Source: Ferrimonas futtsuensis DSM 18154 (GTDB lineage: Bacteria; Pseudomonadota; Gammaproteobacteria; Enterobacterales; Shewanellaceae). Taken from it: a stretch of DNA of 64,000 nucleotides. A program made the translations under genes and the position numbers. This document shows, one piece after another, positions 32,409 through 60,042 of the stretch. The stretch spans positions 62,001-126,000 of the forward strand of contig NZ_AUGL01000015.1 of the NCBI RefSeq assembly GCF_000422645.1, read 5' to 3'. Every line of letters begins with the position of its first letter. Within the stretch, counting starts at the first letter, position 1. The notes under the pieces are model-generated. The model saw only the letters and a program-made list of their open reading frames with translations, searched no databases and was not told the origin of the DNA.

Positions 32409-32987
32409 CGCCGTTGTCCGAAAATTTTTCGCTCAAGTATACTGGCCTGCTCACAGCAAGTTGTTATTAAAGTGTTTCAGAATTTAAGGTGGCGTGCCTC
32501 ACCCGGTCTCGGCACATACACCAAACCGATGCAGAGGACTTATTTAATGGCAGTCACACTTGTCTTGAAGAAAAAATTTATTGATTCCAATCACGTTATT
32601 TATATCCACATTTAGTTTTTTCTATTATGAATAATGCCAGCCAAGCCATATATTGAAACTCAGGCATTAAATTTTCTTCCTCATGAAAATTAACCCACCT
32701 TAAGTCACATGCTCGCACTGGTGAACTTTCCGCCAAAACAAGCGTCAGGCCGCGTAAACATGGGCCTGGCAAGGCAACCTCTCATTAACACCCGACAGAA
32801 ACAGATTACATTGCACTATCCGCAAGACACGATTTTCGCTATTGGAAAGATGGGAGCACCTCTGCAATACAACGCTTAAAATATAGCTAATGCTCCCCTC
32901 TTAATTCCGTTTCAACTATTTTATCCCCTGCCCAGTTTCTCTTTATTCAGCCTTGCCAAATTGGCCGGGCATATTAAAGGACCTCTT
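32409..32987. other. long divergent regulatory region between pump and molybdoenzyme genes
   Basis: No gene is supported over about 580 bases. It contains an FNR-like site (32581-32594), a hairpin with CAGGCC/GGCCTG arms near 32746-32768, and a longer-range pairing GGGAGCA/TGCTCCC around 32853-32899. The AT-rich composition fits promoters for both sides. Confidence 0.45.
32581..32594. promoter_or_regulatory. FNR/EtrA-like box
   Basis: TTGATTCCAATCAC matches the FNR consensus TTGAT-N4-ATCAA at 9 of 10 defined bases. It lies about 394 bases before the Fe-S subunit gene and 173 before the pump gene. Control of the anaerobic reductase is plausible, though the distance would need a long leader. 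Confidence 0.5.
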
Positions 32988-33683
32988 ATGTTAGACAGAC
33001 GTTCATTACTCAAAATGGCGGCAGGGAGTGCGGCTCTGACCCTGATCCCCAGCACCAGCCTGCTGGCCCAGACCCAGGGTAAGCGCATGGCCATGGTGTT
33101 CGACGTTCGCCGTTGTACCGGTTGCCTCTCCTGCAGCGTTTCCTGCTCCATCGAGAACCAGGTACCCGAAGGCCGCGCCCGTACCCGGGTGACCCAATCC
33201 TCTGTGGAAACCGCAGACGGTGTGGCCACCCTGGCGGTGCCCAACCAGTGTAACCACTGTGAGAACCCCTCCTGCGTCGAGGTGTGCCCTAAGAACGCCA
33301 CCTATAAGCGTCCGGAAGATGGCATCGTAGTCATCGATTACGACAAGTGCATCCACTGTCAGCGCTGCGTTAAAGCCTGTCCCTACGGCGCCCGCCGCAA
33401 GGATCCCAAGTACAAGACCGCGCCTGAGAAATGTAACTTCTGCGTGCACCGCCTGGAGCAGGGCCTGCTGCCCGCCTGTGTGGAAACCTGCATCGGCGAA
33501 GCCCGGGTATTTGGCGATCTGAACGATCCCAACAGCGACGTGGCCAAGCTGGTTCGCGACAACAAGGTATACGGCATGCTGCCCGAGTCTGGCAACCTGC
33601 CCAGCATCCTCTACATCGGCCTGCCACAGCCCAGCGATGACAAGAAGATCCTGAAACTCAACCACCTGGAATGGCAACGATAG
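32988..33683 (+). CDS. Tat-exported four-cluster Fe-S subunit (TtrB-like)
   Basis: A 231-residue periplasmic electron-transfer subunit. A twin-arginine signal (DRRSLLKMAAG) opens it; four cysteine groups for [4Fe-4S] clusters follow: CTGCLSCSVSC, CNHCENPSCVEVCP, CIHCQRCVKACP and CNFC with CVETC. This is the DmsB/PhsB/TtrB pattern. It lies 9 bases before the molybdopterin subunit and would pass electrons to it. The ATG at 32988 is chosen because it starts the Tat signal and has AAAGGA upstream; a longer frame from 32961 is not needed. Confidence 0.88.
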   Translation: MLDRRSLLKMAAGSAALTLIPSTSLLAQTQGKRMAMVFDVRRCTGCLSCSVSCSIENQVPEGRARTRVTQSSVETADGVATLAVPNQCNHCENPSCVEVCPKNATYKRPEDGIVVIDYDKCIHCQRCVKACPYGARRKDPKYKTAPEKCNFCVHRLEQGLLPACVETCIGEARVFGDLNDPNSDVAKLVRDNKVYGMLPESGNLPSILYIGLPQPSDDKKILKLNHLEWQR

Positions 33684-33692
33684 GAGATGACG

Positions 33693-36600
33693 ATGGACAG
33701 AAGAAGCTTTATCACCCGCGCCGGCATCGTCACCGCTGCGGCCGCCACCGGCACCGCCTGCAGCTCCACCCCCAAGGGTGGCGAGCCCGCGCCATTGAAC
33801 GTGGCCAAGAGCAATACCCGCTTTGGTAATCCCCTGCCGACCGAAGCCCAGCTGGGTGCCGACGGCAAGCTGCACAAGACCCCGGGCATCCGCACCATGT
33901 ACACCCGCTGCTTCACCTGCAACAACATGTGCGGCCTGCGCGTGCGCATCGACGAAGCCAGCGACAAGGTGCTCAAGGTCGGCGGTAACCCCTACTGCGA
34001 GATGAACTCCGGCTCTCCCCTGCCCCTGAGCATGCCGGTCCGTGACAGCTATGCCGCTCTGGCAGGCAACACCGGCCTGGAAAACCGCGCCACCACCTGT
34101 GGCAAAGGCGCCAGTGGCGTTGGCTGTGTGGACGACCCACGCCGTGTCACCCAGGTGCTCAAGCGTGTGGGCAAGCGCGGCGAAGGCAAATGGAAGAGCA
34201 TCAGCTACGAGCAGGCCCTGACCGAGATCCTCGAAGGGGGCGACCTGTTCGGAGAAGGCCACGTGGAGGGCATCAAGGCGATTCGTCAACTGGATAAGCC
34301 AGCAGTTCCGGGCTATCCGGAATTCGGCTCCGCCGCCAACCGCCTGCTGGCCACCTTCGGTGAAGAGGATACCCTGCGCGGCAGCCTCTACGCGCGCTTC
34401 ATGCGTCAGGCCTACGGCACCGTGAACCTGGTGACCAAGCACGCCTACTGTGGTGCGCCCACCGGCATCGGCTATGGCATCGGCCTGGCTCCCGGCCTGG
34501 AGCCCGGCCTGGGTGACATCGACTGGGATAACGTCGAGTACGCCATGTTCCTGGGTACCGCCCCAGGGTCCTCCGGCGCCAGCCTGAACCTGCTGGGTCG
34601 CAACCTGGCAGACGCCCGTGTCGAGCGCAACCTCAAGTACACCAGCGTCGACCCCCTGCTGCGTACCGAGGTGGCCAACGACACCCGTGCCCAGTGGCTG
34701 CCCATTCGCCCCGGCCGCGACGCCGCCTTTATGATGGCGATGATGCAGGTGATGTTCACTGAGAACTGGTTTAACGCCGAATTCCTGGCGATTCCCAACG
34801 CCGACGCCGCCAAGGCTGCCGGTGAAGTGAACCACAGCAACGCCAGCCACCTAGTGGTCACCGACGCCAAGCACAAGGACCTCACCCTGTTCGCCAAAGC
34901 CTCCGACTTCGGCGTGGGCGGCGACGAAGCCATGGTGGTTGAGAACGGCAAACTGGTTTCCGCCAACCTGGCGAAGAAGGCCGATCTGTTCGTCGACGGC
35001 CTGTTCACCGATGTTAACGGCAATCAGGTTCAGCTGACCTCCTCCCTGGCCCTGCTCAAGGCCCAGGCCAACCAGGCGCCTCTGGCCTCGCTGTCTGCCG
35101 ACTGCGGTATCCAGCAATCCCAGATCAAGCAGGCCGCCAAGGACCTGACTCACCATGGCCGCAAGGCCACGGTAGTGACCAACTCCGGTGCCAACAGTGG
35201 TGATGCCATCATGGTCGGCTGGCTGGTGTCCACCATGAACACCCTGATCGGTTCCCACGACGCCAAGGGCGGTACCCTGTATGCCAACGGCGCCTACTGG
35301 GGCTTCGAAGGCAATTACAACCTGGGTGGTTTCGACGGTGAACTGGATGTCAGCGCAGACATCAACATCTGCCGCTCCGGCGCCTATGAGGACTCCACCG
35401 AGTACAAGCAGAAGGTGGCCAAGGGCGAGAACCCCTACCCCGCCAGCGACATGTGGCACAACCTGGTGGCAGGCTACGCCTCCTTCAACGCCGCCGAGGC
35501 GCTGACCGCCCACACCAATGCCAACCCCTACACCGCCAAGGCCCTGTTCAACTGGCGCAGCAACGCCCTGTACAGTGCCGCCTCCATCAGCAACGATGTG
35601 GAGAAGGCGCTGGTGGACACCGACAAACTGCCTCTGTTTGTCGCCATCGACTGCTACATGAACGAAACCAACCGCTACGCCGACTACTTCATCCCGGATC
35701 GCGTGATGTACGAAGAGTACGCCGCCGACCGCATGTGGGGCGCATTCAAACTGGGTGTGGTCGCAGGTGCGCCTCTGGTGACCCCGCGTACCCCCAAGAA
35801 CGCCAAGGGCCAGCATATCTGCATGGAGCAGTTCATGATCGATATGGCCATGGCCATGGACTTGCCCGGCTTCGGTAAGGGTGCCATCCCCGCCGCCGAC
35901 GGTCGCAAGGTGGACCTGCTGACCTTCGAAGACTGGCACTCCCGCTACCTGGCCAACATCGCCGCCCAGTGCAGCAAGCTGCCAGCGGTATCCGATGAGG
36001 ACCGCGAGTGGGCGGCCCTGGAGTACTCCATGGCGCCTCTGCGTCCCCGCCTGACCGGCGAGGAAGCGGCCAAGGTGGAAGCCCTGCTCTCCCGCGGTGG
36101 TTACTACGAGGAAGCCGAGCGATACGACGGCAACTTCATCAATGGCGGCGGCGGCAAGTTCCTGCAGATCTACAACGCCGACATGGCTCAGCTGCGCCAC
36201 TGCCACTCTGGCGAGCGTTATCCTGGCGTGCCCTCCTACGAAGCCAAACGCTTCTGGAACGGCGACACCTGGGAGCAGCACTGGCCTGAGAAGGAGTTCC
36301 CGCTGCTGTTCTCCAACTACAAGCCGACCCTGCGCTCCAACTACTCCGCCGCCTTTGACCGCTGCGCCGAGGTAACACCGCAGAACTTCGTCTACATGAA
36401 CATCGATACCGCCGCCGAGATGGGGCTGACCGATGGTGACAAGGTTCGGGTGGTATCCGGCAACGGCACCCCAGCCGAAGGCGTGCTGCAGGCGGACTCC
36501 GGTGTGGCCAAAGGCTCCGTGTGTGTGTCCCACTGCTTCGGTCACAAGAAGGCCTATGGTGCAGACACCCGCATAATCGACGGCAAGGTCATCGAAGGCA

Positions 36601-36743
36601 TCGCCCGCCGTGGCGGCGGTACTGCGGTGAATCAGATGATCCCCGCCGATCCGACCCGTCCCGGCAAGGTCTCCATGCTCAACGACTACTACGCCGGCAC
36701 CAACTGCCGTCAAGGCATTCCAGTAAGAGTGGAAAAGGCGTAA
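33693..36743 (+). CDS. Tat-exported molybdopterin oxidoreductase catalytic subunit (TtrA/SrdA-like)
   Basis: A 1016-residue periplasmic molybdoenzyme. It has a Tat signal (MDRRSFITRAG), a [4Fe-4S] motif CFTCNNMC with a later Cys in TTCGKG, and a Cys in KHAYCGAP at the position of the Mo ligand in the thiosulfate/tetrathionate/arsenate branch. A C-terminal MopB-type domain (VRVVSGNGTPAEGVL) binds the cofactor. Length and gene pair resemble tetrathionate reductase TtrA or selenate reductase; the true acceptor is not proven. The start at 33693 is favoured since AGGAG abuts the ATG at 33687. There is no NrfD/TtrC-type membrane subunit here. A strong terminator follows. Confidence 0.78.
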   Translation: MDRRSFITRAGIVTAAAATGTACSSTPKGGEPAPLNVAKSNTRFGNPLPTEAQLGADGKLHKTPGIRTMYTRCFTCNNMCGLRVRIDEASDKVLKVGGNPYCEMNSGSPLPLSMPVRDSYAALAGNTGLENRATTCGKGASGVGCVDDPRRVTQVLKRVGKRGEGKWKSISYEQALTEILEGGDLFGEGHVEGIKAIRQLDKPAVPGYPEFGSAANRLLATFGEEDTLRGSLYARFMRQAYGTVNLVTKHAYCGAPTGIGYGIGLAPGLEPGLGDIDWDNVEYAMFLGTAPGSSGASLNLLGRNLADARVERNLKYTSVDPLLRTEVANDTRAQWLPIRPGRDAAFMMAMMQVMFTENWFNAEFLAIPNADAAKAAGEVNHSNASHLVVTDAKHKDLTLFAKASDFGVGGDEAMVVENGKLVSANLAKKADLFVDGLFTDVNGNQVQLTSSLALLKAQANQAPLASLSADCGIQQSQIKQAAKDLTHHGRKATVVTNSGANSGDAIMVGWLVSTMNTLIGSHDAKGGTLYANGAYWGFEGNYNLGGFDGELDVSADINICRSGAYEDSTEYKQKVAKGENPYPASDMWHNLVAGYASFNAAEALTAHTNANPYTAKALFNWRSNALYSAASISNDVEKALVDTDKLPLFVAIDCYMNETNRYADYFIPDRVMYEEYAADRMWGAFKLGVVAGAPLVTPRTPKNAKGQHICMEQFMIDMAMAMDLPGFGKGAIPAADGRKVDLLTFEDWHSRYLANIAAQCSKLPAVSDEDREWAALEYSMAPLRPRLTGEEAAKVEALLSRGGYYEEAERYDGNFINGGGGKFLQIYNADMAQLRHCHSGERYPGVPSYEAKRFWNGDTWEQHWPEKEFPLLFSNYKPTLRSNYSAAFDRCAEVTPQNFVYMNIDTAAEMGLTDGDKVRVVSGNGTPAEGVLQADSGVAKGSVCVSHCFGHKKAYGADTRIIDGKVIEGIARRGGGTAVNQMIPADPTRPGKVSMLNDYYAGTNCRQGIPVRVEKA

Positions 36744-45729: not shown

Positions 45730-48700
45730 TTAGGCGACCACTTCTGCCTCTTCCCGCTTCTCCAGGCGCACAGCACACACCTTGAACTCAGGGATCTTAG
45801 CATGGGGATCCAGAGCCGGGTTGGTCAGCCTGTTGGCCGGAGCCTCTTCGAAGTGGAAGGCGGTAAACACCACCCCGACCTGAATCCGCTTGGTGACAAA
45901 GGCGTTGAGCTCAATTTCACCACGACGGGTGGTCAGGCGGATAGGATCACCGTTGCCAATCCCCAGGCGCTCCGCATCCGGTACCGAGATCATCGCCGTA
46001 GGACCGGCCAGATCATTCAGGCCCTGGGTCTTGCGGGTCATGGTTCCGGTGTGGAACTGCTCCAGCAGCCGGCCCGTGGTCAGAACCAAGGGGTACTCCT
46101 CGTCCGGCAGTTCGGCGGCGTACTTGAAGGGGATGGGCTCCATAAAGGCGCGCTCACCAATGGCAAAGGTATCCACGTGCATCACCGGCATGCCGTCGCA
46201 CTTGTCATCCACACAGGGCCACTGCATGCCGGCTGTGCCGACCCGGTCCCAACGGATGCCGGCGTACTGGGGCACCGCTAGGTTAATCTCATTGCAGATG
46301 GCCCGCTCATCCTTATAGCGCCAGTTGGCACCCAGTGCCTGAGCCAGCAGCTGTAGGATTTGCCAGTCCTTACGCGCGTCTCCGGGAGCCTGCACCGCAG
46401 CGTTAAGACGCTGAACCCGGCGCTCGGTATTGGTGAAATGACCGGTCTTCTCAGCAAAGGCAAAGGCCGGCAGAACCACGTCTGCCATGCGGGCGGTCTC
46501 GGTCATAAAGATGTCCTGCACCACCAGCAGATCCAGTGCCTTAAGCGCCTTGATCACATGGTGCTGGTCCGGATCGGACAATACCGGGTTTTCGCCCATC
46601 ACGTACAGACCGTCCACGCGATCATCCAGGATGGCATCCATCACCTCGGTCACGGTCAGGCCGCTGTTGCCGGAGAGGTCCGTATGCCACAACGCCTCGA
46701 ACTTCTCGCGAATCAGTGGATCTTCCGGGTTCTGGTAACCGGGCAGATAATTGGGCAGAGCCCCCATGTCGCAAGCGCCCTGTACGTTGGACTGACCGCG
46801 CAACGGGTTGATGCCCGCCCCTTCCACACCGATGTTGCCGCACAGCAGTTGCAGGTTGGCAATGGCACGAACATTGTCATGACCCGTGGTGTGCTGGGTA
46901 ATGCCCATGGCGTAGTAGACCGCGGTCTTTTCGGCGGTGCCGATGAGACGGGCCATCTCCCGAACCTGATCGGCGGGAACACCGGTGACGGCGGCGACAC
47001 GCTCCGGTTCGTAGTCCGGCTTCATCACTTCGGTCTTGAACGCTTCGAACCCTTCGGTACGACGGGACACATAGCCATCATCCTGCCAGCCATTGACCAG
47101 AACCTCCCGGGCGATGCCGTTGAGCAGCATCACATCGGTACCGGGACGGTGGCAGGCGTACAGCTGCGCACTGTCTGCCAGCCCGATGCGCTTGGGATCC
47201 GCCACCATGAGGCGGGCACCGTGGTGACGCACCGCCTGCTTGATGTGGGAAGCGATCACCGGGTGGGCGGCGGTGGTGTCAGAACCGATGACAAAGATCA
47301 GATCCGACTTTTTGATGGACGGGATGTCATTGGTCATGGCACCACTGCCCACCGCAGCGCGCAAACCGCTGACCGTGGTGGAGTGACACAGGCGGGCACA
47401 GTGGTCGATGTTGTTGGTGCCGATAACACTGCGGAACAGCTTCTGGAACAGGAAATTGTCTTCGTTGGTGGCCTTGGCGGAAGCAAAGCCCGCCATGGCG
47501 TCACCGCCCTTGGCCTTGATGATGTTCTCGATCTTGGCCGCAATGAAGGCGATGGCGTTGTGCCAGGTGGTGGGCACCAGCTCGCCATCCTTGCGAATAA
47601 GCGGCTGGGTCAGTCGCTCCTGGGAGCCGATGAAGTCAAAGCCAAAACGGCCCTTCACACAGAGCATCCCCTCGTTCACCGGGGACCCTTCCACACCGGT
47701 GACCTTAACAATCTTATTTTCCTGCTCATCAACGTGCAGGCGCACACCACAGCCCACACCACAGTAGGTGCAGATGGTGTCGACGGTTTTCAGCTGTTTG
47801 GTGCGGCCCTGACTGCGATCCCTGGCGTCGGTGAGTGCGCCCACAGGACAGGCCTGAACACAGGCGCCACACTGGCTGCAGTTGGAGTTGGCCATCAGCT
47901 CGCCATTATCGAAGCAGACGCGCTGATGCGGGGCACTCTTATCAAAGCCGAGCACACCATGAACGCCGCGCTCGTTACAGGCCACCACACACTGGCCACA
48001 ACTGATGCAACGGTTGGGGTCGAAGTTTATGAAAGGCGCACTGGAGTCGATGCGTTTCTGCTGCGCCTTGGAGTAATCCAGGTCATCGTCACTGATGCGG
48101 TACTCGGTGGCATAATCGCGCAGGCCACAGTCGGTATTGACCTGACAGCCACACTCCAGGCAACGGGCCGCTTCGGCAATGGCCTTATCCACGTCGAAGC
48201 CCAGCTCCACCTCATCGAAGCTGTCACGACGCTCCATCGGCGGGATCTCCGGCATCGCCAGGCGTCGCTCTTTCGGCCAATGGTCGAGGAAGCGGGCCTC
48301 CACCTCTTTCAGACTCTTGGCCTTACGGGCATTGAACTGGGCCTTAGGAGGCACGACCAGCCCCTGCTGCAGGAAGGCATCAATGGCCACCGCGGCCTTC
48401 TTACCGTCGCCAATCGCTTCGACCGCAGTCGCCGGACCGAGGCGGAAATCGCCGATGGCAAACAGGTTGGCCATGCCGGTGTGCATGGTGGTGGGATCCG
48501 CATCGGCGGTGGTCCAGCGGGTCAGAGGCAGAGCCTCCCCCTTGAGCTGGCTGGCTTCTGAGGCCAGCAACTCGGCATCCGGCTTCTGGGACACCGCCGC
48601 AATCACGGTATCGAACTCCATCCAGCGAAATTCGCCGGTGGACTCGGGGCGGCGACGGCCCGAAGCATCCGGCTCACCCAGTTTCAGGGTTTCCACCTTC

Positions 48701-49875
48701 ACCTTGCAGACCCGGCCATTGTCGTCAGCCAGGTTCTCTACCGGCAGGGAGAGGAACTCAAAGTTGACTCCCTCCACCTCGGCTTCATGAATTTCGTAAT
48801 CTTCCGCCGGCATGTCTGCCTTGGTACGACGGTAGATGATGCTGACCTCGGCGCCCTGGCGCAGGGCGGTACGGGCACAGTCGATGGCGGTGTTACCGCC
48901 GCCGATCACCGCCACCCTTTTACCCACGGACACCTCTTTGCCCAGGGTGAACTCCTTCAGATAGTCCACCCCCAGCATGCAGCCCTTCTGGTCGGAACCG
49001 GTGTAATCCATGGCCACCGCTTTCTGGGCGCCAATGGCCAGACAGACCGCATCATACTCCTGGCTCAGCTGATCCAGGGTAAAGTCGCGGCCCATGGCCT
49101 GGTTAAGGCGAATCTCCATGCCGGCACGGCACATCAATTCAATCTCTTTATCCAAGGTCGCCTTAGGCAGGCGGTATTCAGGGATGCCGTAGCGCAGCCA
49201 GCCACCCGCTTTGGGCATGGCTTCGAAGACTACAGCGTCATAACCGTTGTGGCTGAGGAAGTAACCTGCAGACAGACCAGCCGGACCACCACCGATGATG
49301 GCCACCTTCTTGCCCTTCTTGGGGGCGATGGGCGCCAGGTGCTGCTGGTCATTGAGATCCAGATCGGCGGCGTGTCGCTTCAGCTGACGAATGGCCAGGG
49401 GCTCATCCACCAGGGTACGACGGCAGGCAGTTTCACAAAATGCAGGACAGACCCGGCCGATGGAGAGCGGCATCGGCAGGGTGTCTTTAATGGTATTGAC
49501 CGCCTTGGTGTGATCCCCCTGAGCGATGTCGTAGAGATAGCCCTGGATGTCCACGTCTGCGGGACAGGCCACCTTACAGGGCGCTTCGCAGTCGGCGGTA
49601 TGGTCAGACAGAATCCGCTTAAGGGCAGCCCTACGGGTCTCGGTAAGCGCCTCACTCTGAGTCTGTACCTGGATCTCCTTGGTGACCGGGTAGCGGCAGC
49701 TCAGGGTCACTTCGCCGTCGATTTCGACTGCGCAGAGACCGCACGCCTCCTGGCCCTCACCGTTGGGGCCGCCGCACAAGGAGGGCACCTCAAAGCCAGC
49801 GGCCCGGCAGGCCTCCAGCAAATTGGCGGACTCCTCAACTTCAACTTCTTGATTGTTTATGGAGATCTTTATCAT
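45730..49875 (-). CDS. fused ferredoxin-flavoprotein-formate dehydrogenase
   Basis: A 1381-residue cytoplasmic multidomain enzyme. In order: [2Fe-2S] ferredoxin (Cys 34, 45, 48, 60); a GltD/AegA-like flavoprotein with an FAD motif (AIIGGGPAGLSAG, about residue 192) and an NAD(P) motif (VIGGGNTAIDC, about 323); ferredoxin clusters (CISCGQCVVAC near 623, CSQCGACVQACP); then an FdhF-type molybdenum domain with CTYCGVGC (about 703) and the Mo ligand as Cys, in HCARLCHSTT (about 825), where E. coli FdhF has selenocysteine. It may couple formate oxidation to NAD(P) reduction within one chain. The ATG at 49875 has AGAAGAG upstream. No FdhD or other subunits are adjacent. Confidence 0.85.
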   Translation of the reverse strand: MIKISINNQEVEVEESANLLEACRAAGFEVPSLCGGPNGEGQEACGLCAVEIDGEVTLSCRYPVTKEIQVQTQSEALTETRRAALKRILSDHTADCEAPCKVACPADVDIQGYLYDIAQGDHTKAVNTIKDTLPMPLSIGRVCPAFCETACRRTLVDEPLAIRQLKRHAADLDLNDQQHLAPIAPKKGKKVAIIGGGPAGLSAGYFLSHNGYDAVVFEAMPKAGGWLRYGIPEYRLPKATLDKEIELMCRAGMEIRLNQAMGRDFTLDQLSQEYDAVCLAIGAQKAVAMDYTGSDQKGCMLGVDYLKEFTLGKEVSVGKRVAVIGGGNTAIDCARTALRQGAEVSIIYRRTKADMPAEDYEIHEAEVEGVNFEFLSLPVENLADDNGRVCKVKVETLKLGEPDASGRRRPESTGEFRWMEFDTVIAAVSQKPDAELLASEASQLKGEALPLTRWTTADADPTTMHTGMANLFAIGDFRLGPATAVEAIGDGKKAAVAIDAFLQQGLVVPPKAQFNARKAKSLKEVEARFLDHWPKERRLAMPEIPPMERRDSFDEVELGFDVDKAIAEAARCLECGCQVNTDCGLRDYATEYRISDDDLDYSKAQQKRIDSSAPFINFDPNRCISCGQCVVACNERGVHGVLGFDKSAPHQRVCFDNGELMANSNCSQCGACVQACPVGALTDARDRSQGRTKQLKTVDTICTYCGVGCGVRLHVDEQENKIVKVTGVEGSPVNEGMLCVKGRFGFDFIGSQERLTQPLIRKDGELVPTTWHNAIAFIAAKIENIIKAKGGDAMAGFASAKATNEDNFLFQKLFRSVIGTNNIDHCARLCHSTTVSGLRAAVGSGAMTNDIPSIKKSDLIFVIGSDTTAAHPVIASHIKQAVRHHGARLMVADPKRIGLADSAQLYACHRPGTDVMLLNGIAREVLVNGWQDDGYVSRRTEGFEAFKTEVMKPDYEPERVAAVTGVPADQVREMARLIGTAEKTAVYYAMGITQHTTGHDNVRAIANLQLLCGNIGVEGAGINPLRGQSNVQGACDMGALPNYLPGYQNPEDPLIREKFEALWHTDLSGNSGLTVTEVMDAILDDRVDGLYVMGENPVLSDPDQHHVIKALKALDLLVVQDIFMTETARMADVVLPAFAFAEKTGHFTNTERRVQRLNAAVQAPGDARKDWQILQLLAQALGANWRYKDERAICNEINLAVPQYAGIRWDRVGTAGMQWPCVDDKCDGMPVMHVDTFAIGERAFMEPIPFKYAAELPDEEYPLVLTTGRLLEQFHTGTMTRKTQGLNDLAGPTAMISVPDAERLGIGNGDPIRLTTRRGEIELNAFVTKRIQVGVVFTAFHFEEAPANRLTNPALDPHAKIPEFKVCAVRLEKREEAEVVA

Positions 49876-50383
49876 TTTTTGCTCTTCTCTGGCCGGCGTC
49901 AGCCGCACCGGCCTACTACTTCAGAGGTAATTGTCCGGAAAGGGTCAGCTGAACCCCATTCCTGATCGATCAGGCTATCAACCCCCCAGCCAGGTTTGAA
50001 GAAAACCTGAGTGCATCCGTGATCTCAGTCATAAAGACTGCAAGAGGTAAGACCAATCTGGCCTTCATGACTTGGATTCAGGAATCCCGGGGGCTCAGAG
50101 AACAAAAATTTTCGCTAAACCCCCAAAGATTTTAGGGTAATCACCTCTTTGACCGTCGAAAAGATGACCATCACAGCTAACGAGGCAACACAAGGGGTAA
50201 AAATGTAGCCCACCACCGGCCCGGACCCGTGAGTAGGCAAAGACTAGCCGCCAAACTCACTTTGAAACAGTGGCTTTAGCCTGACTCAGTTTTTGGCAGA
50301 AACAGATAATCCGCCGACTCCTCCTAAGTTTAGTCGAGCCAGGCAATCAGACAGGGAGAGCAAAGAGTGTGTCTTTCAGCCCG
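49876..50383. other. intergenic region upstream of the fused dehydrogenase
   Basis: No supported gene. It contains a perfect 14-bp palindrome at 49961-49974 and a small CAGGTTTG-type hairpin near 49991-50009. A 97-codon plus-strand frame over the DoxX-like gene end is judged a shadow. Confidence 0.4.
49961..49974. repeat. 14-bp palindrome upstream of the fused dehydrogenase
   Basis: CCTGATCGATCAGG, perfect, 86-99 bases before the dehydrogenase start. It resembles an FNR site but with a 2-base instead of 4-base centre, so another regulator is more likely. Confidence 0.45.
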
Positions 50384-54192: not shown

Positions 54193-54221
54193 AAAAACGG
54201 GAGCCGGCGGCTCCCGTTTTT
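54193..54221. terminator. bidirectional terminator
   Basis: Stem of about 13 bp (AAAAACGGGAGCC) with a GGC loop, flanked by A and T runs, between lon and the convergent LuxR-type gene. Confidence 0.92.
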
Positions 54222-54996
54222 ACAACAATCCGGTCTGGTAGGCCTTGCTGACCAGGTTGGTGCGATTCCTGGCCCCTAGAATCTCCCGCGCCCGATCGAG
54301 GTGGTAGTTGACCCCACGTTCGGTTAAAAACAGTTTCTTACCGATCTCTTCGCTCGAGTCCCCTTCTGCCACCATGGTCAGGATCTTGATACAGGTCGGG
54401 GATAACAGCCCAAAATTGGCAATAGGGTTGATATCCAGATGAGCCAAATAGTTGAAGATCGACGAGTACTCCTCCAACAAGGCAACCAGCTCCTGGTGCC
54501 TGCTCTGCACGTTTCGTTCTATCTCGACCTCCTCCTGCTCGGAAAACAGGTGGAAGATGCCCATCCAGCCCTCCCGCCCCGCTACCTTGTGATAAAAGGT
54601 CGCGGCGCCGCCGATATTGTGTTTGGCCTTCAGGTGTTCAACGCTCCTGCGCCGTCGTTCGTCAATGCGGCGCACCGGAAAGTAGAAGGGGTGGCGATGG
54701 ATGCAGCTCGAGGGTCTCGAATAGAGAAAACTGCAATCGGCCCTGGAAAAGCGATACAGAAACTCATCTCGGAACTGAAGAATCTTGTCATCGGAGCTAA
54801 CCGCAAAGCGCATCTTCTTAAGACCGCTCGGGTTCCCGAAGAACAGCTTACTGTTTCGGCCTATACTCTCGGAGAAGCTCGGAAGATCATCGGGCAGGAT
54901 GCAATAGTAGAAACGCCCAAAACCCAAAGGCCTGAGCTTTTCTAAGAACGTATTGATGACCTGGCTGCTAACGTAACCGCTGTGCTGAGCCGGCAT
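54220..54996 (-). CDS. LuxR-type regulator of the second cytochrome unit
   Basis: A 258-residue regulator. Its N-terminal part resembles LuxR autoinducer-binding domains (LRPLGFGRFYYCILP near the start; YHKVAGREGWMGIFHLFS toward residue 150), and the C-terminal helix-turn-helix is clear: LSPTCIKILTMVAEGDSSEE, ERGVNYHLDRAREILGARNR. No signal synthase gene is near, so it would be a solo receptor for an unknown signal. It lies 72 bases downstream of a four-haem lipoprotein gene on the same strand and is the same length as its paralogue at 57209. No receiver domain is present. Function is inferred from domains. Confidence 0.75.
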   Translation of the reverse strand: MPAQHSGYVSSQVINTFLEKLRPLGFGRFYYCILPDDLPSFSESIGRNSKLFFGNPSGLKKMRFAVSSDDKILQFRDEFLYRFSRADCSFLYSRPSSCIHRHPFYFPVRRIDERRRRSVEHLKAKHNIGGAATFYHKVAGREGWMGIFHLFSEQEEVEIERNVQSRHQELVALLEEYSSIFNYLAHLDINPIANFGLLSPTCIKILTMVAEGDSSEEIGKKLFLTERGVNYHLDRAREILGARNRTNLVSKAYQTGLL

Positions 54997-55068
54997 ACCT
55001 TATCCCCTGTTTCGGAAAAATGGGAAGGGTCTCCCCTTCCCCTAAACGCCTTTCTACTTAACCTGTCG

Positions 55069-56976
55069 CTACCTGTCAACGTGGCAAGTCAGGCAGCTCT
55101 CCGGCTCCTTAAAATTGGACTCCTTGCTGTAGTAGTCGTTCTTGTCCGCGTACACATTACCGTGTTTGGCCAGAGTTTGAGAGTGACAGAAGCCACAGGT
55201 ATAACGCTCGCCGTGGTTGTTGGGCGCCCCGTTATTGCCGTGGCACTCGGCACACTCATAGGGCGCCATCGCCTCCACTACATGGCTGTTGGAGGGGTCG
55301 TGACAGGTGGTGCAATCCGGAAGTTTCCAGCCGAAGTGGCTCTCATCCAAGGGGGCTCGCGCCTTGGAGATATCCTTGAGATTGGCGATATCAATCTCGG
55401 GGGATTCCGCGTCACACCCTGAGGGCACTCCGCTATTAGTGTTCATGTCACCGAAGGCCACACCCAGGTAGTTGATGTACTCGGGACCGTAGATGATCAT
55501 GTTGTCACCGGTCAGGTGAGGGTCGTTGGCACCAAAGGGCATGCCAAACTTCATATACCCTGTGGGGCCATCATTCTCATACAGCTCCCCCGCCCCGTAG
55601 TTGCGAGGACGGAAGCCTTTGATGCCCGGCACCTTGCCCAGGCAAGCAGCCCGGTTCCAGTTTTCCGGCATATCCGTGCGACCGGCACACATCACAAACT
55701 CATACAGGACGTTCTGGGCGCCACCATCGGCGTAGTTCTCCCACTCGCCGGTGTGGTGCACAAAACCGCACTCACCGTTGTTCTTATAGGTCTGGTTGAT
55801 GATGTTGCCGAGATCATCCTTGCCGTTGAAGCTGATGGCAGTTGCCACATAGCCCTGCACGTTGGCATTGGTGCTCAGGCGCGGCCAGTAACTCCAGTCG
55901 ATCTTCAGATCCGGGCGCTGATCCACCAGGGACAGCCAGGCATCCAGCTCGGTCAGCACGCCGGGCTGATAGAGATCCAGGCGCAGGTTGTGCGGCTTCA
56001 CCTCAATGTCCTTGAATACCGCCCGCTGCCCCGGCTGCACCAGTTCACCGTTCATGTCGTAGTAAGGGGGCTTAAAGTCGATGACAATCTCAGGCACGAT
56101 CACCTTGCCACCGTTGGCCGCCAGACGATCCATCTCCCTCTGGTACTTGCGCTTACGCACCTCCATCTCACCAGGCTGAGCAGGCATTAGCACGATGCTC
56201 ATCTGGTTCTTCAACGCCAGATGGTCGATGCGGAAGTAGATCTCCTCCTCTTTGTAGTAAAGGTGGTCTGTGTTGTAATCCGTTCCTTTTTTGACTTCTT
56301 CACCTTTAATGGCAGCAAAAGGATCACCTCCGTCAATTTTTTCATCCCAAACGCTGGGGCCCACCAGGTATTTCCACCCCTGGCCTTCGGTGGCACCGAG
56401 GCGGGATTGATCAACTTTTTCAGGCGCCCCCTCAATACCGCCAATGGAGGTGACAAAGTAGGTCTTGAGTGCCTCATCTTTTTCGATCTGAACGTCGATA
56501 CCGTACTTGTCACTGACCCACATCAGCAGATCGAGCACCGAGCCACGTCCCTCAGGAAACAGATCGGGACGAAGGGTATCGATCTTGACTCCAGACATGT
56601 TGATGGCGGTTGGCGGAAGCAGATACTCAATCTTCATCCCCTTGGCTGAAGCGGTATCCTCCATCTTGGTCCGAATCAGGCCATCACCGGGGAACACCTT
56701 GGTCCCCTGAGGCCCGGCGAGGGTTTCTTGAGCGTGCGCCGGCTCTGTCTTGGCGCCGCCCTCTGCAGGCACCAACGACTTTACGATGGCAATCTGGATG
56801 GTGCCATCGAGCTGCTCGGTCGGGCCGCCAAAGACGTAATCAGGTTTATTGATTTCTGGAGGTAGTGTTTCCGGTGGAGTGGGGGTGGGAATGGGCGATG
56901 CGGGGGTATCATCACTGCCACACCCCCCCAGGACGACACTCAAGGCCAGTGCCGCCCAAATTTTGTTTTGTCTCAT
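55069..56976 (-). CDS. four-haem outer-membrane-type lipoprotein (copy 2)
   Basis: A 635-residue predicted lipoprotein: signal with lipobox LGGC, a low-complexity Pro/Thr spacer, an N-terminal part whose LDLLMWVSDKYGI, YFVTSIGGIEG and GWKYLVG elements recall DUF4430-type ubiquitin-like domains, a long middle part of unknown fold, and four haem motifs at the C-terminus (CTTCH, CAECH, CGFCH, CLTCH). Four further cysteines are shared with copy 1. It is probably attached to the outer membrane and passes electrons or binds a substrate; the partner is unknown. The second of two adjacent ATGs is taken as start, with AAGGAAG upstream. It is close to copy 1 in protein sequence from about residue 240 on. 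Confidence 0.72.
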   Translation of the reverse strand: MRQNKIWAALALSVVLGGCGSDDTPASPIPTPTPPETLPPEINKPDYVFGGPTEQLDGTIQIAIVKSLVPAEGGAKTEPAHAQETLAGPQGTKVFPGDGLIRTKMEDTASAKGMKIEYLLPPTAINMSGVKIDTLRPDLFPEGRGSVLDLLMWVSDKYGIDVQIEKDEALKTYFVTSIGGIEGAPEKVDQSRLGATEGQGWKYLVGPSVWDEKIDGGDPFAAIKGEEVKKGTDYNTDHLYYKEEEIYFRIDHLALKNQMSIVLMPAQPGEMEVRKRKYQREMDRLAANGGKVIVPEIVIDFKPPYYDMNGELVQPGQRAVFKDIEVKPHNLRLDLYQPGVLTELDAWLSLVDQRPDLKIDWSYWPRLSTNANVQGYVATAISFNGKDDLGNIINQTYKNNGECGFVHHTGEWENYADGGAQNVLYEFVMCAGRTDMPENWNRAACLGKVPGIKGFRPRNYGAGELYENDGPTGYMKFGMPFGANDPHLTGDNMIIYGPEYINYLGVAFGDMNTNSGVPSGCDAESPEIDIANLKDISKARAPLDESHFGWKLPDCTTCHDPSNSHVVEAMAPYECAECHGNNGAPNNHGERYTCGFCHSQTLAKHGNVYADKNDYYSKESNFKEPESCLTCHVDR

Positions 56977-57160
56977 CATCTCTTCCTTACTGGTTGCTAT
57001 AAGCCAAGTAAGGATAAGAGCAGTCTTCATGCGTCGATACTGGCAGCAGCAACAGTACCTAAACCCAGTGTGACCGGGATCCTCACCGCTGGAAGTTCAC
57101 AGTCAAATTTGACGCCAGGATGTAATCCGCCTGACCTTAAAGCCACCGTACCAACAAAAA

Positions 57161-57187
57161 GAGCACCCGTTAGGGTGCTCATTTTTT
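57161..57187 (-). terminator. terminator between the two cytochrome units
   Basis: Stem GAGCACCC/GGGTGCTC with a GTTA loop, flanked by A5 on the left (T5 on the minus strand) and T6 on the right. It ends the first cytochrome-regulator unit, so the second must have its own promoter. Confidence 0.88.
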
Positions 57188-57208
57188 GCTCTCGAAATCT
57201 CTTGGAGC

Positions 57209-57985
57209 TCACAAAACCCCTTGCAGGTAGGCCTTACTCACCAAGTTGGTGCGGTTGCGTGCTGCCAGGATCTGCCTCGCTCTGTCCAGGTGATAGTTGA
57301 CCCCGCGCTCGGTCATAAACAGCTGCTGGCCAATCTCCTCGCTGGAAAACCCTTCCGCAACCTGCGCCAGAATCTGTATGCAGGTGGGCGACAATACTCC
57401 GAAGTTGGCCAGAGGGTTGATGCAGCGAAACGTCAGGGCATTGAAGGTCTCGGAATAAGCCCCTATCAACTCCGCCAGCTCCCGCCTTATCGAGGCCAGC
57501 ATCTCCTCCACCTCTATGGCCGGCTTGTCGGAAAACAGCATGCACAGGCCCAGCAGATCCTCCCGGCCCGGCATCACGTGAAAAAACACCAACCGAGTTT
57601 CGAAGCCGTGGCGATGCTTCAGTTGACGAAAACTGGCCTGACGCCTGGGGGGTATGCCATCGTCACTCCAGATACTGGGCAACAACTCCCACTGTGGTTT
57701 GAACCCACTCTGGCGAAAGCTGCCGTCAGTGTGGGCAAACCGTTGCAGGTACTCCTCCCGATAGAGGAGAATGTCCTCATCGGATGCGACGGCATACCGC
57801 ATCCGCTTCAAATTAAAAAACCGCTTCCAGTCCAGGGAGCGGTCACAATCCATCAAGGTCTTCTCTTTCTGAAACAGGTTGGGCAAAAGGGTGTAGTAGA
57901 ACCTGCCCAGTCCAAATTCCGCCAGGCGATTGGAAAAATCATCGATAAGCTGCTGATTTACCAGCCCGGTTAACGGTGCGGCCAT
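57209..57985 (-). CDS. LuxR-type regulator of the first cytochrome unit
   Basis: A 258-residue regulator paralogous to the one at 54220. The N-terminal half has FGLGRFYYTLLPN and FFHVMPGREDLLGLCMLFSD, like LuxR ligand-binding domains; the C-terminal helix-turn-helix (LSPTCIQILAQVAEGFSSEE, ERGVNYHLDRARQILAARNR) is nearly the same as in the paralogue while the sensor half differs strongly. The start at 57985 is chosen: GGGGAGAAG precedes it, and it makes both paralogues exactly 258 residues. It lies 59 bases after the first cytochrome gene. It could respond to a different signal than its twin. Confidence 0.75.
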   Translation of the reverse strand: MAAPLTGLVNQQLIDDFSNRLAEFGLGRFYYTLLPNLFQKEKTLMDCDRSLDWKRFFNLKRMRYAVASDEDILLYREEYLQRFAHTDGSFRQSGFKPQWELLPSIWSDDGIPPRRQASFRQLKHRHGFETRLVFFHVMPGREDLLGLCMLFSDKPAIEVEEMLASIRRELAELIGAYSETFNALTFRCINPLANFGVLSPTCIQILAQVAEGFSSEEIGQQLFMTERGVNYHLDRARQILAARNRTNLVSKAYLQGVL

Positions 57986-58044
57986 CATCTTCTCCCCATG
58001 CAGGGGGAGCCAGGCTCCCCCATCTGTTGTCATGTCTGATTAGA

Positions 58045-59913
58045 TCACTTCTGCGCATCCACGTGGCAGGTCAGACAGCTTTCCGGCTCCTTGAACCTGG
58101 AGTCCTTGCTGTAGTAGTCGGTTTTGTTGGCGTACACATTACCGTGCTTGGCCAGGGTTTGGGAGTGACAGAAGCCACAGGTATAGCGCTCGCCGTGGTT
58201 GGTGGGCGCACCGTTGTTGCCATGGCATTCTGCACACTCATAAGGCGCCATCGCCTCCACCACATGACTGTTGGAGGGGTTGTGGCAGGTGGTGCAATCC
58301 GGCAGTTTCCAACCGAAGTGACTTTCATCCAGCGGCGCCCGCGCCTGGGCAATGTCCTTGAGGTTGGCGATATCAATCTCGGGGGAATCCAGGTCACAGC
58401 CTGAAGGCACACCGTTGTTGGTGTTCAGGGCACCGAAGGCCACCCCCAGGTAGTTGATGTACTCAGGACCGTAGATGATCATGTTATCGCCGGTCAGGTG
58501 AGGATCGTTGGCGCCAAACGGCACGCCAAACTTCATGTATCCTGTGGGTCCATCATTCTCATACAGCTCCCCTGCACCATAATTGCGGGGACGAAAGCCC
58601 TTGATGCCCGGCACCTTGCCCAAGCAAGCACCTCGGTTCCAGTCTCCAGGCATATCCAGTCGGCCGGCGCACATCACATACTCATACAGGCCATTCTGGG
58701 CGCCGCCATCGGCGTAATTCTCCCATTCACCGGTGTGGTGAACGAAGCCGCACTCGCCGTTGTTCTTATAGGTCTGGTTGATGATGTTGCCCAGATCATC
58801 CTTGCCATTGAAGCTGATGGAGGTGGCCACAAAGCCCTGCACATTGGCGTTGGTGCTCAGCCGCGGCCAGTAGCTCCAGTTGATCTTCAGGTCCGGACGC
58901 TGCTCCACCAGGGAGAGCCAGGCATCCAGCTCGGTCAGCACCCCAGGCTGATAGAGATCCAGACGCAGGTTATGCGGTTTCACCTCGATGTCCTTGAACA
59001 CCGCCCGCTGACCTGGCTGAACCAGGTCACCGTTCATGTCGTAATAGGGAGGCTTAAAATCGATGACAATCTCCGGAACGATCACCTTGCCGCCATTGGC
59101 GGCCAGACGGTCCATCTCCTTCTGGTACTTGCGCTTGCGCACCTCCATCTCACCGGGTTGGGCGGGCATCAGAACGATGCTCATCTGATTCTTCAGCGCC
59201 ATGTGATCGATGCGGAAGTACATCTCCTCCTCTTTGTAGTAGAGATGGTCTGCATTAAAATCTCCGTCACCCACCTTGGCTTCCCAGGTGCTGGGCCCCA
59301 CCAGGACTTTCCAGCCCTGACCTTCGGTCTCACCCAAACGGGATGAGTCAACGCGCTCAGGGGCGCCCTCGATGCCGTCAATGGCGGTCACGAAATAGGT
59401 CTTGAGTGCATCATCCTTCTCAATCTGCACGTCAATGCCGTACTTCTCCCCGACCCACATCAGCAGGTCCAGCACAGACCCTCGGCCTTCGGGAAACAGG
59501 TCTGGACGCAGAGTGTCGATCTTCACTCCGGACATGTTGATGGCGGTCGGAGGCAACAGGTAGTCGATCTTCACCCCCATATCCGCCGCCTGCTGATCCA
59601 TCTTAGTTTCAACCAGACCATCAACGGGGATCACCTTGACTCCTTGAGGCCCGGAAGCGCCCCCTTGAGCATGCGCAGGCTCTTCCTTGGCGCTGCCCTC
59701 TGTGGGCACCAGGGACTTTACAATGGCGATTTGAATGGTGCCATCGAGCTGCTCAGTCGGGCCACCAAACACGTAGTCAGGTTTGATCACCTCCGGTGCC
59801 GTTGGCGGCGTGGGAGGTTCGGGTTTGGTCACATCATCGCTGTCGCTGCCGCAGCCAGCCAACACCAGGCTGAGAGCAACGGCAGACATTAATAGGTATT
59901 GTTTTTTCATCAT
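58045..59913 (-). CDS. four-haem outer-membrane-type lipoprotein (copy 1)
   Basis: A 622-residue paralogue of the protein at 55069: lipobox LAGC, Asp/Thr/Pro-rich spacer, DUF4430-like stretch (LDLLMWVGEKYGI, YFVTAIDGIEG, GWKVLVG), middle region, and four C-terminal haem motifs (CTTCH, CAECH, CGFCH, CLTCH). It lacks an insert of about 13 residues present in copy 2 after the DUF4430-like part. The conserved HHTGEWENYADGGAQN and DGPTGYMKFG blocks mark an uncharacterised domain. Three ATGs follow AAGGAT; the middle one is used. First gene of the first unit. A role as a surface redox protein is inferred, not shown. Confidence 0.72.
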   Translation of the reverse strand: MMKKQYLLMSAVALSLVLAGCGSDSDDVTKPEPPTPPTAPEVIKPDYVFGGPTEQLDGTIQIAIVKSLVPTEGSAKEEPAHAQGGASGPQGVKVIPVDGLVETKMDQQAADMGVKIDYLLPPTAINMSGVKIDTLRPDLFPEGRGSVLDLLMWVGEKYGIDVQIEKDDALKTYFVTAIDGIEGAPERVDSSRLGETEGQGWKVLVGPSTWEAKVGDGDFNADHLYYKEEEMYFRIDHMALKNQMSIVLMPAQPGEMEVRKRKYQKEMDRLAANGGKVIVPEIVIDFKPPYYDMNGDLVQPGQRAVFKDIEVKPHNLRLDLYQPGVLTELDAWLSLVEQRPDLKINWSYWPRLSTNANVQGFVATSISFNGKDDLGNIINQTYKNNGECGFVHHTGEWENYADGGAQNGLYEYVMCAGRLDMPGDWNRGACLGKVPGIKGFRPRNYGAGELYENDGPTGYMKFGVPFGANDPHLTGDNMIIYGPEYINYLGVAFGALNTNNGVPSGCDLDSPEIDIANLKDIAQARAPLDESHFGWKLPDCTTCHNPSNSHVVEAMAPYECAECHGNNGAPTNHGERYTCGFCHSQTLAKHGNVYANKTDYYSKDSRFKEPESCLTCHVDAQK

Positions 59914-60042
59914 CATCTTATCCTTGCATCGAATATGCAGGACAAGAATAGGAATCCGATGTGGGAGCATTCACTGGGAGAAATTACAGGAGGAAACCAA
60001 CCTGTGATTCACGCCCGCTACCAGGCCAAAAACAGTGGAGGT

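Follow-up and report, generated by a model that had tools for sequence, protein, structure and literature searches.

Why should a gene for a LuxR-type regulator stand directly behind a gene for a multihaem lipoprotein, and do so twice in succession? The question is raised by a locus of Ferrimonas futtsuensis DSM 18154, which lies in the 64,000-nucleotide stretch analysed here (contig NZ_AUGL01000015.1, positions 62,001 to 126,000; referred to as the window). Two units follow one another on the minus strand, and each consists of a gene for a lipoprotein with four CXXCH motifs and a gene for a solo LuxR-type protein. The original prediction, made from the sequence letters, had described this layout with a terminator between the units; the coordinates and protein sizes hold, the gaps from cytochrome to LuxR are 59 nt in unit 1 and 72 nt in unit 2, and a terminator scan recovers the hairpin. 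The two units are made up as follows.

59913-58045, minus strand: cytochrome 1 (P0001), 622-residue tetrahaem lipoprotein with a lipobox and four C-terminal CXXCH motifs
58003..58021, minus strand (listed on the plus strand by the scan): hairpin in the gap between cytochrome 1 and LuxR 1
57985-57209, minus strand: LuxR 1 (P0003), 258-residue LuxR-type solo with a GerE domain
57180-57161, minus strand: terminator-like hairpin 3' of LuxR 1, between the units (terminator scan)
56976-55069, minus strand: cytochrome 2 (P0002), 635-residue tetrahaem lipoprotein, a mosaic
55022..55041, minus strand: hairpin and then a T-run in the gap between cytochrome 2 and LuxR 2 (hairpin scan)
54996-54220, minus strand: LuxR 2 (P0004), 258-residue LuxR-type solo with a GerE domain

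Both cytochromes carry a signal peptide with a lipobox cysteine ahead of the C-terminal haem motifs. We consider it probable that each LuxR solo binds a small-molecule signal and, together with CRP, activates its own tetrahaem-lipoprotein operon. The evidence for this reading comes from the linkage of the two genes across a family, from their co-divergence and from the elements of their promoters.

Cytochrome 1 was searched against 146 genomes of the window's family and matched in 34; LuxR 1, searched against the same 146, matched in 19 at 1e-12, mostly in the same places. Eighty neighbourhoods were taken, genes were called, and both protein families were gathered with iterated profiles. Overlapping regions were merged, and cytochromes were kept if they exceeded 450 residues and carried four CXXCH motifs, the motifs being an entry condition. 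Counted in this way, and among the matches listed, the family comprises at least 99 full-length tetrahaem cytochromes of 578-849 residues in 18 genomes, with ten per genome at most. The other 16 matched genomes gave weak matches only, and neighbourhoods from three of them (L113-L115) held no member or a fragment. Filtering removed one copy truncated at the edge of its locus and one fragment lacking the four motifs (L079, L115), a further copy of fewer than 450 residues (L050), and LuxR proteins below 150 residues (one in L111).

The regulators likewise belong to one family, of which 99 were collected from the neighbourhoods fetched. A family LuxR gene lies within 1.5 kb of 88 of the 99 cytochrome genes; two of the 99 (L109, L110) came from regions picked by a LuxR match, and without them 86 of 97 are paired. 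For ten of the 11 other cytochromes, the distance to a family LuxR of the same cluster is about 2.7-6.2 kb (coordinates by eye); the eleventh is on a 4.8-kb contig. Seen from the regulators, 88 of 99 have a cytochrome within 1.5 kb and 11 do not. The pairing is a family-wide rule, and the possibility raised with the original prediction, that such cytochromes usually occur without the LuxR gene, therefore falls away. The genome of F. futtsuensis itself, whose best segments match F. kyonanensis at 82%, F. sediminum at 68% and Shewanella at 63-64%, has seven tetrahaem members, and five of its 20 GerE genes adjoin these. At two of its loci (C6 165955-170433 and C4 57389-63454), two neighbouring cytochromes stand around or beside one LuxR.

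The arrangement of the pair varies. The nearest LuxR is downstream on the same strand for 52 of the 88 cytochromes, upstream on the same strand for 25, upstream and divergent for nine, and downstream and convergent for two; these classes, like the 83 pairs used below, were set by the nearest LuxR, and a few units inside arrays are misplaced. Across 83 one-to-one pairs, the pairwise distances of cytochromes and LuxR proteins correlate with a Mantel r of 0.82, against permuted maxima of 0.14 (5000 permutations) and of 0.32 when permuted within genomes (2000 permutations).

Beyond what the original prediction had seen, the window's two promoters share a lux-box-like and a CRP-like element.

60003..60007, minus strand: TCACA, CRP-like half-site of promoter 1 (upstream alignment)
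59974..59989, minus strand: lux-box-like CTGTAATTTCTCCCAG (CTG-N10-CAG) of promoter 1
59945..59950, minus strand: -10-like TATTCT of promoter 1, 31 nt beyond the centre of its box
57069..57073, minus strand: TCACA, CRP-like half-site of promoter 2
57040..57055, minus strand: lux-box-like CTGTTGCTGCTGCCAG of promoter 2
57011..57016, minus strand: -10-like TATCCT of promoter 2

An alignment of 16 upstream regions contains TCACA, a CTG-N10-CAG-type palindrome and a TATTCT-like element. In the 52 cytochrome-first units, which include most of the 16 regions where the pattern was first spotted, TCACA is present in 40 (11 expected) and TGTGA in 8. Between -150 and -80, a range fixed after inspection, TCACA occurs in 38 of the 52, and in 30 of these 38 it is followed within 10-60 nt by CT-N12-AG, as compared with 2-10 for spacings of 6-11 and 13-18; in non-redundant units the count is 23 of 31, against 1-10 at other spacings. 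Where a unit has both elements, TCACA stands 26 bp from the box centre in 15 cases (the window's clade), 36 bp in 15 and 37 bp in three, the 36-bp class having been recognised afterwards. The -10-like element starts 31 nt past the box centre in the 26-bp class and 30 nt past it in the 36-bp class. Such spacing would put the box near -42 of a putative start site, and in the 36-bp class the TCACA element would sit one helical turn further out. The pattern TCACA-N13-CTG-N10-CAG, derived from the window's promoters, has two sites in the 4.3-Mb genome of F. futtsuensis, which are just these promoters, and its backwards control has none. A plain palindrome score for an 18-bp inverted repeat exceeds that of shuffled sequences only slightly (5.76 versus 5.16, sd 0.12). 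In a promoter scan, the minus strand between 54100 and 60200 has no promoter with consensus -35/-10 elements.

Both elements resemble sites with known regulators. Lux boxes are placed 42.5 nt upstream of the start, where LuxR activates, in the section of PMC7585371 consulted. The omcA and mtrC promoters of Shewanella oneidensis are activated by CRP according to the portion of PMC4417206 consulted, where the omcA site TCAGATCTCAATCACA, termed putative, and the mtrC site AAAGATCCAAGTCACA, a half-site only, lie inside CRP-binding regions tested by electrophoretic mobility shift assay. The corresponding site of an S. canadensis unit, AGGGATCTCAATCACA, can be likened to these two.

The GerE domain (PF00196) scores above cut-off at the C-terminus of LuxR 1 (E 6e-10) and LuxR 2 (E 2e-10), and is matched in all 12 LuxR sequences of set A2. 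The predicted LuxR model has two globular domains with the LasR/QscR/RhlR/TraR fold in a structure search, in which full-length matches have root-mean-square deviations of 6-18 A and the close fits are those of separate domains; the N-terminal domain is predicted to have the LasR/TraR-type ligand-binding fold. In sequence, the ligand-binding half has no convincing Pfam match. No LuxI synthase was found in 17 of the 18 member genomes, that of F. futtsuensis included, and the single LuxI-type match is in F. kyonanensis (G023:C17 51606-52115).

Taken together, each unit would be a self-contained inducible respiratory operon made up of promoter, cytochrome, intercistronic hairpin and luxR. A LuxR solo of the LasR/QscR/TraR structural type would bind a small molecule, and its dimer, seated on the CT-N12-AG palindrome near -42 of its own promoter, would activate transcription, with cAMP-CRP bound upstream on the same helix face as co-activator. 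The product would be a lipoprotein with four haems that probably sits on the outer surface and acts as an electron-transfer protein or reductase. In its N-terminal part there may be one transcobalamin-beta/DUF4430-like domain, and probably two, for binding a soluble ligand, while the haem tail at its C-terminus would exchange electrons with an MtrAB-type conduit. The hairpin 3' of the cytochrome stop codon may reduce the expression of luxR or make the cytochrome mRNA more stable. When folded, 41 cytochrome-LuxR gaps have a mean z of -2.51, with 23 below -2, versus a mean of -1.57 and 54 below -2 in 148 control same-strand gaps (p 8e-4); since other same-strand gaps also score low, the enrichment is only moderate.

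The cytochromes are best compared with the Shewanella surface cytochromes MtrC and OmcA. As in these, a lipoprotein carries a C-terminal multihaem stretch, MtrC/MtrF domains II/IV are weakly matched in Pfam (29 of 39 members, best 1.6e-5), the promoter has a CRP-like element, and six genomes have, at 1.3-6.2 kb from members, genes that resemble mtrA/dmsE and mtrB in size and haem count; one such MtrA/MtrB-like pair near a member was confirmed by profiles. Unlike MtrC and OmcA, the family has four haems instead of ten, a putative transcobalamin-like domain in its non-haem N-terminal part and a LuxR of its own, and the window's pair stands outside any mtrAB operon. The decahaem OmcA/MtrC family TIGR03507 is not listed for the window's proteins at E 1 and gives weak matches to five of the 39 members, the best at E 8.4e-5. 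Larger cytochromes were also seen nearby. Nine 8-haem proteins of 605-663 residues occur near tetrahaem/LuxR units (L040, L049, L059, L062, L072, L083, L093), of which that of L059 has a Big_9 domain and an adjoining TetR gene in a profile scan, and at L099 9339-14574 a tetrahaem/LuxR unit faces a decahaem gene of the OmcA/MtrC family (TIGR03507 E 4e-95).

The DUF4430-like region of the original prediction has tentative support from fold. By Pfam the match is not significant: it appears weakly for four of the 13 close members, at a best E of 0.021, and for one of the 39 diverse members, at E 0.077, and the own genome has none at E 0.001. A fold search with the cytochrome model, whose mean predicted local distance difference test score (pLDDT) is 42, returned the transcobalamin beta-domain/DUF4430 fold in its 14 top rows, and part of the model tentatively resembles the transcobalamin beta-domain. 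A sequence search of the PDB with the cytochrome gave nothing useful. Compared with the beta-domain of transcobalamin and intrinsic factor and with the DUF4430-like 3u7z, there is no significant sequence match, and the domain here would be fused to four haems; Rfam has no cobalamin riboswitch in the window, L032, L036 or L058.

Unit 2 tells how such a cassette can change. Cytochromes 1 and 2 are 86% identical, LuxR 1 and 2 only 47%. Closest to LuxR 2 is the fourth regulator in the F. kyonanensis array (K4), with 74% identity, while cytochrome 2 is 70% identical to the K4 cytochrome. The trees accord with these values: LuxR 2 groups with K4 (100/100), and cytochrome 2 with cytochrome 1, G025 and K2 (100/100). 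Two further clades were tried and rejected, cytochrome 2 with the K4 cytochrome by the cytochrome tree (AU p 7e-44) and LuxR 1 with LuxR 2 and G025 by the LuxR tree (p 3e-5); the tested clades were named after the identities had been seen, and K1, K2, G145 and G007 carry a long-branch warning. Along the unit, informative sites from -130 to +110 nt of cytochrome 2 are K4-like in 71 cases and like cytochrome 1 in 12, and beyond +110 nt the counts are 109 and 333. The first 110 nt or so of the gene are thus of one lineage and the remainder is like cytochrome 1. Judged from these sites and the trees, the promoter, signal peptide and LuxR of unit 2 share one ancestry, and its cytochrome body is of the neighbour's type. 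The likely cause is gene conversion or replacement within the array, with cytochrome 2 as the presumed recipient. A second array pair, K3/K4, has cytochromes 84% alike and LuxR proteins 46% alike. Unit 2 therefore implies that a regulator-promoter module and a cytochrome body can separate.

This bears on two claims of the original prediction. It had held that the output parts are conserved and the N-terminal parts divergent in both pairs, which is borne out for the LuxR proteins in that the ligand-binding-type domain diverges strongly. The cytochrome differences are scattered: identity is 57% over the signal peptide and linker (first 60 aligned codons), 70% over codons 80-140 and 71-78%, plus an insertion, over codons 160-260. 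Since codons 120-180 and 240-420 are 93-97% identical, the differences are not simply confined to the DUF4430-like region. The prediction had also suggested that each unit has its own regulator, tuned to its own signal. The pairing and the ligand-binding type of the LuxR N-terminal domain favour this; the proposed matching of the variable N-terminal parts is not supported in the form given, unit 2 being a mosaic.

Several observations weigh against the activator reading. Within range, 14 of the 52 cytochrome-first units have no TCACA, 8 of the 38 with TCACA have no box, and both elements together occur in just 30 of 52. CTG-N10-CAG is present in none of the 25 units with the LuxR upstream on the same strand, so that the promoter rule holds for part of the family only. 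When the full TGTGA-N6-TCACA was sought, the left half of the CRP site proved poorly conserved, and a box near -42 could equally serve repression. The mean pLDDT of the cytochrome model makes its fold match tentative, the three MtrB-type porins of the own genome are on contigs other than that of the window pair, and unit 2, by its mosaic make-up, speaks against an obligatory match between signal and cytochrome.

The strongest competitor turns the sign of control around: LuxR would be an autoregulatory repressor of its own operon, relieved by ligand, and CRP alone would activate. RNA polymerase would likewise be blocked by a box that overlaps the presumed -35 region, and QscR, whose entry names it a control repressor, ranks with the best matches in fold and in sequence. 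We think this unlikely, as the constant distance from box to -10 element and the lack of a consensus -35/-10 resemble activator-dependent promoters, and the box would occupy the described activating position of LuxR. Less likely again is that the regulators are receptors for N-acyl-homoserine lactones (AHLs), with the cytochromes under quorum sensing or eavesdropping on the AHLs of neighbours. The fold of the LuxR model and the lux-box-like promoter sites would suit such receptors; 17 of the 18 genomes have no LuxI, however, and the ligand-binding half remains without a convincing Pfam match. In addition, LuxR 1 has L74 and E78 where TraR has W57 and Y61, two residues typical of AHL binding (positions counted by eye from the invariant D87).

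The two remaining alternatives are both highly improbable. Pairing could be a mere by-product of the repeated duplication of one ancestral cluster, without regulatory meaning, and tandem arrays and clear duplications are present. Yet the LuxR gene is found in all four positions relative to its cytochrome, which indicates that the linkage outlived rearrangement; the box keeps a fixed spacing in two operon classes, and the distances correlate even against within-genome permutation. Duplication by itself is already disfavoured on these grounds. As for the cytochrome being a sensor that passes redox or ligand information to its LuxR, a role the original prediction had also offered, no evidence was found. 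In its favour are the close linkage of the genes and the possibility that the N-terminal domain binds a soluble ligand, but a lipoprotein outside the inner membrane and a two-domain LuxR have no visible link, and the body of cytochrome 2 was swapped while its LuxR stayed.

The family, in the preferred reading that of a ligand-responsive LuxR activating its own cytochrome operon with CRP, can be compared with known systems. It shares with the LuxR quorum-sensing family and its solos (LasR, QscR, RhlR, TraR, SdiA) the predicted fold of both domains, the GerE domain and a CT-N12-AG palindrome at a fitting promoter position. It differs from these in the near absence of LuxI, in a ligand-binding half without a convincing Pfam match, and in that most regulators adjoin one cytochrome gene. 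No description of the cytochrome/LuxR pair was found in full-text searches of the open-licence literature, in keeping with the original prediction, which knew of no system of such composition; in the portion of the Ferrimonas multiheme paper PMC11475568 consulted, LuxR, tetraheme and lipoprotein do not occur. The Ferrimonas/Shewanella pair family is apparently undescribed.

Wider samples were scored with a 39-sequence profile, with up to three candidates per genome. The order sample gave 3 positives among 394 genomes, all from the window's genus; the phylum sample gave 3 among 398, two from that genus and one distant protein in G540; and the class sample gave 2 among 369, the own genome and a weak match in G912 (E 8.9e-6). 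None of the Shewanella genomes positive in the family search is among these positives, and presumably none is in the samples. The G540 protein (G540:C53; L120 961-2739, L125), from outside the class, is a distant lipoprotein-like relative (E 8.6e-13) with three CXXCH near its N-terminus, ahead of part of the family's non-haem module. At L099 2356-9102, a family LuxR without an adjoining tetrahaem gene stands ahead of apparent genes for two regulators, for a lyase of aromatic amino acids and for a reductase of the flavocytochrome c type (lyase and reductase by profile); L116 and L117 are arranged alike, judged by gene sizes. By this arrangement, the LuxR family may serve other respiratory reductases. 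Elsewhere in the window, open reading frames at 32961-36743 resemble a molybdopterin oxidoreductase with an iron-sulphur subunit, and one at 45730-49908 resembles a formate-dehydrogenase-like fusion (both by eye).

A broader and more speculative view is that the units form an expandable recognition repertoire for extracellular respiration, multiplied to as many as about ten copies per genome in the Ferrimonas and Shewanella lineage, with modules re-assorted. The cassette would consist of a LuxR solo, a private lux-box promoter under CRP and a surface tetrahaem protein with transcobalamin-type ligand domains. Each LuxR would be a chemosensor for one acceptor or shuttle, and the cytochrome might bind a corrinoid or a similar soluble redox carrier. 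Gene conversion would re-assort regulator-promoter modules and cytochrome bodies, so that the same electron-transfer body could be placed under a new signal.

LuxR solos without an assigned ligand are common, and their ligands are hard to assign. Here, the members of a LuxR family accompany a single type of target gene, and their binding site and its spacing are predicted, which would reduce ligand searches to simple reporter tests. The family would give extracellular respiration a further class of probable surface cytochromes, one that is regulated and multi-copy, and would offer a natural case of the re-assortment of regulator and effector within an array.

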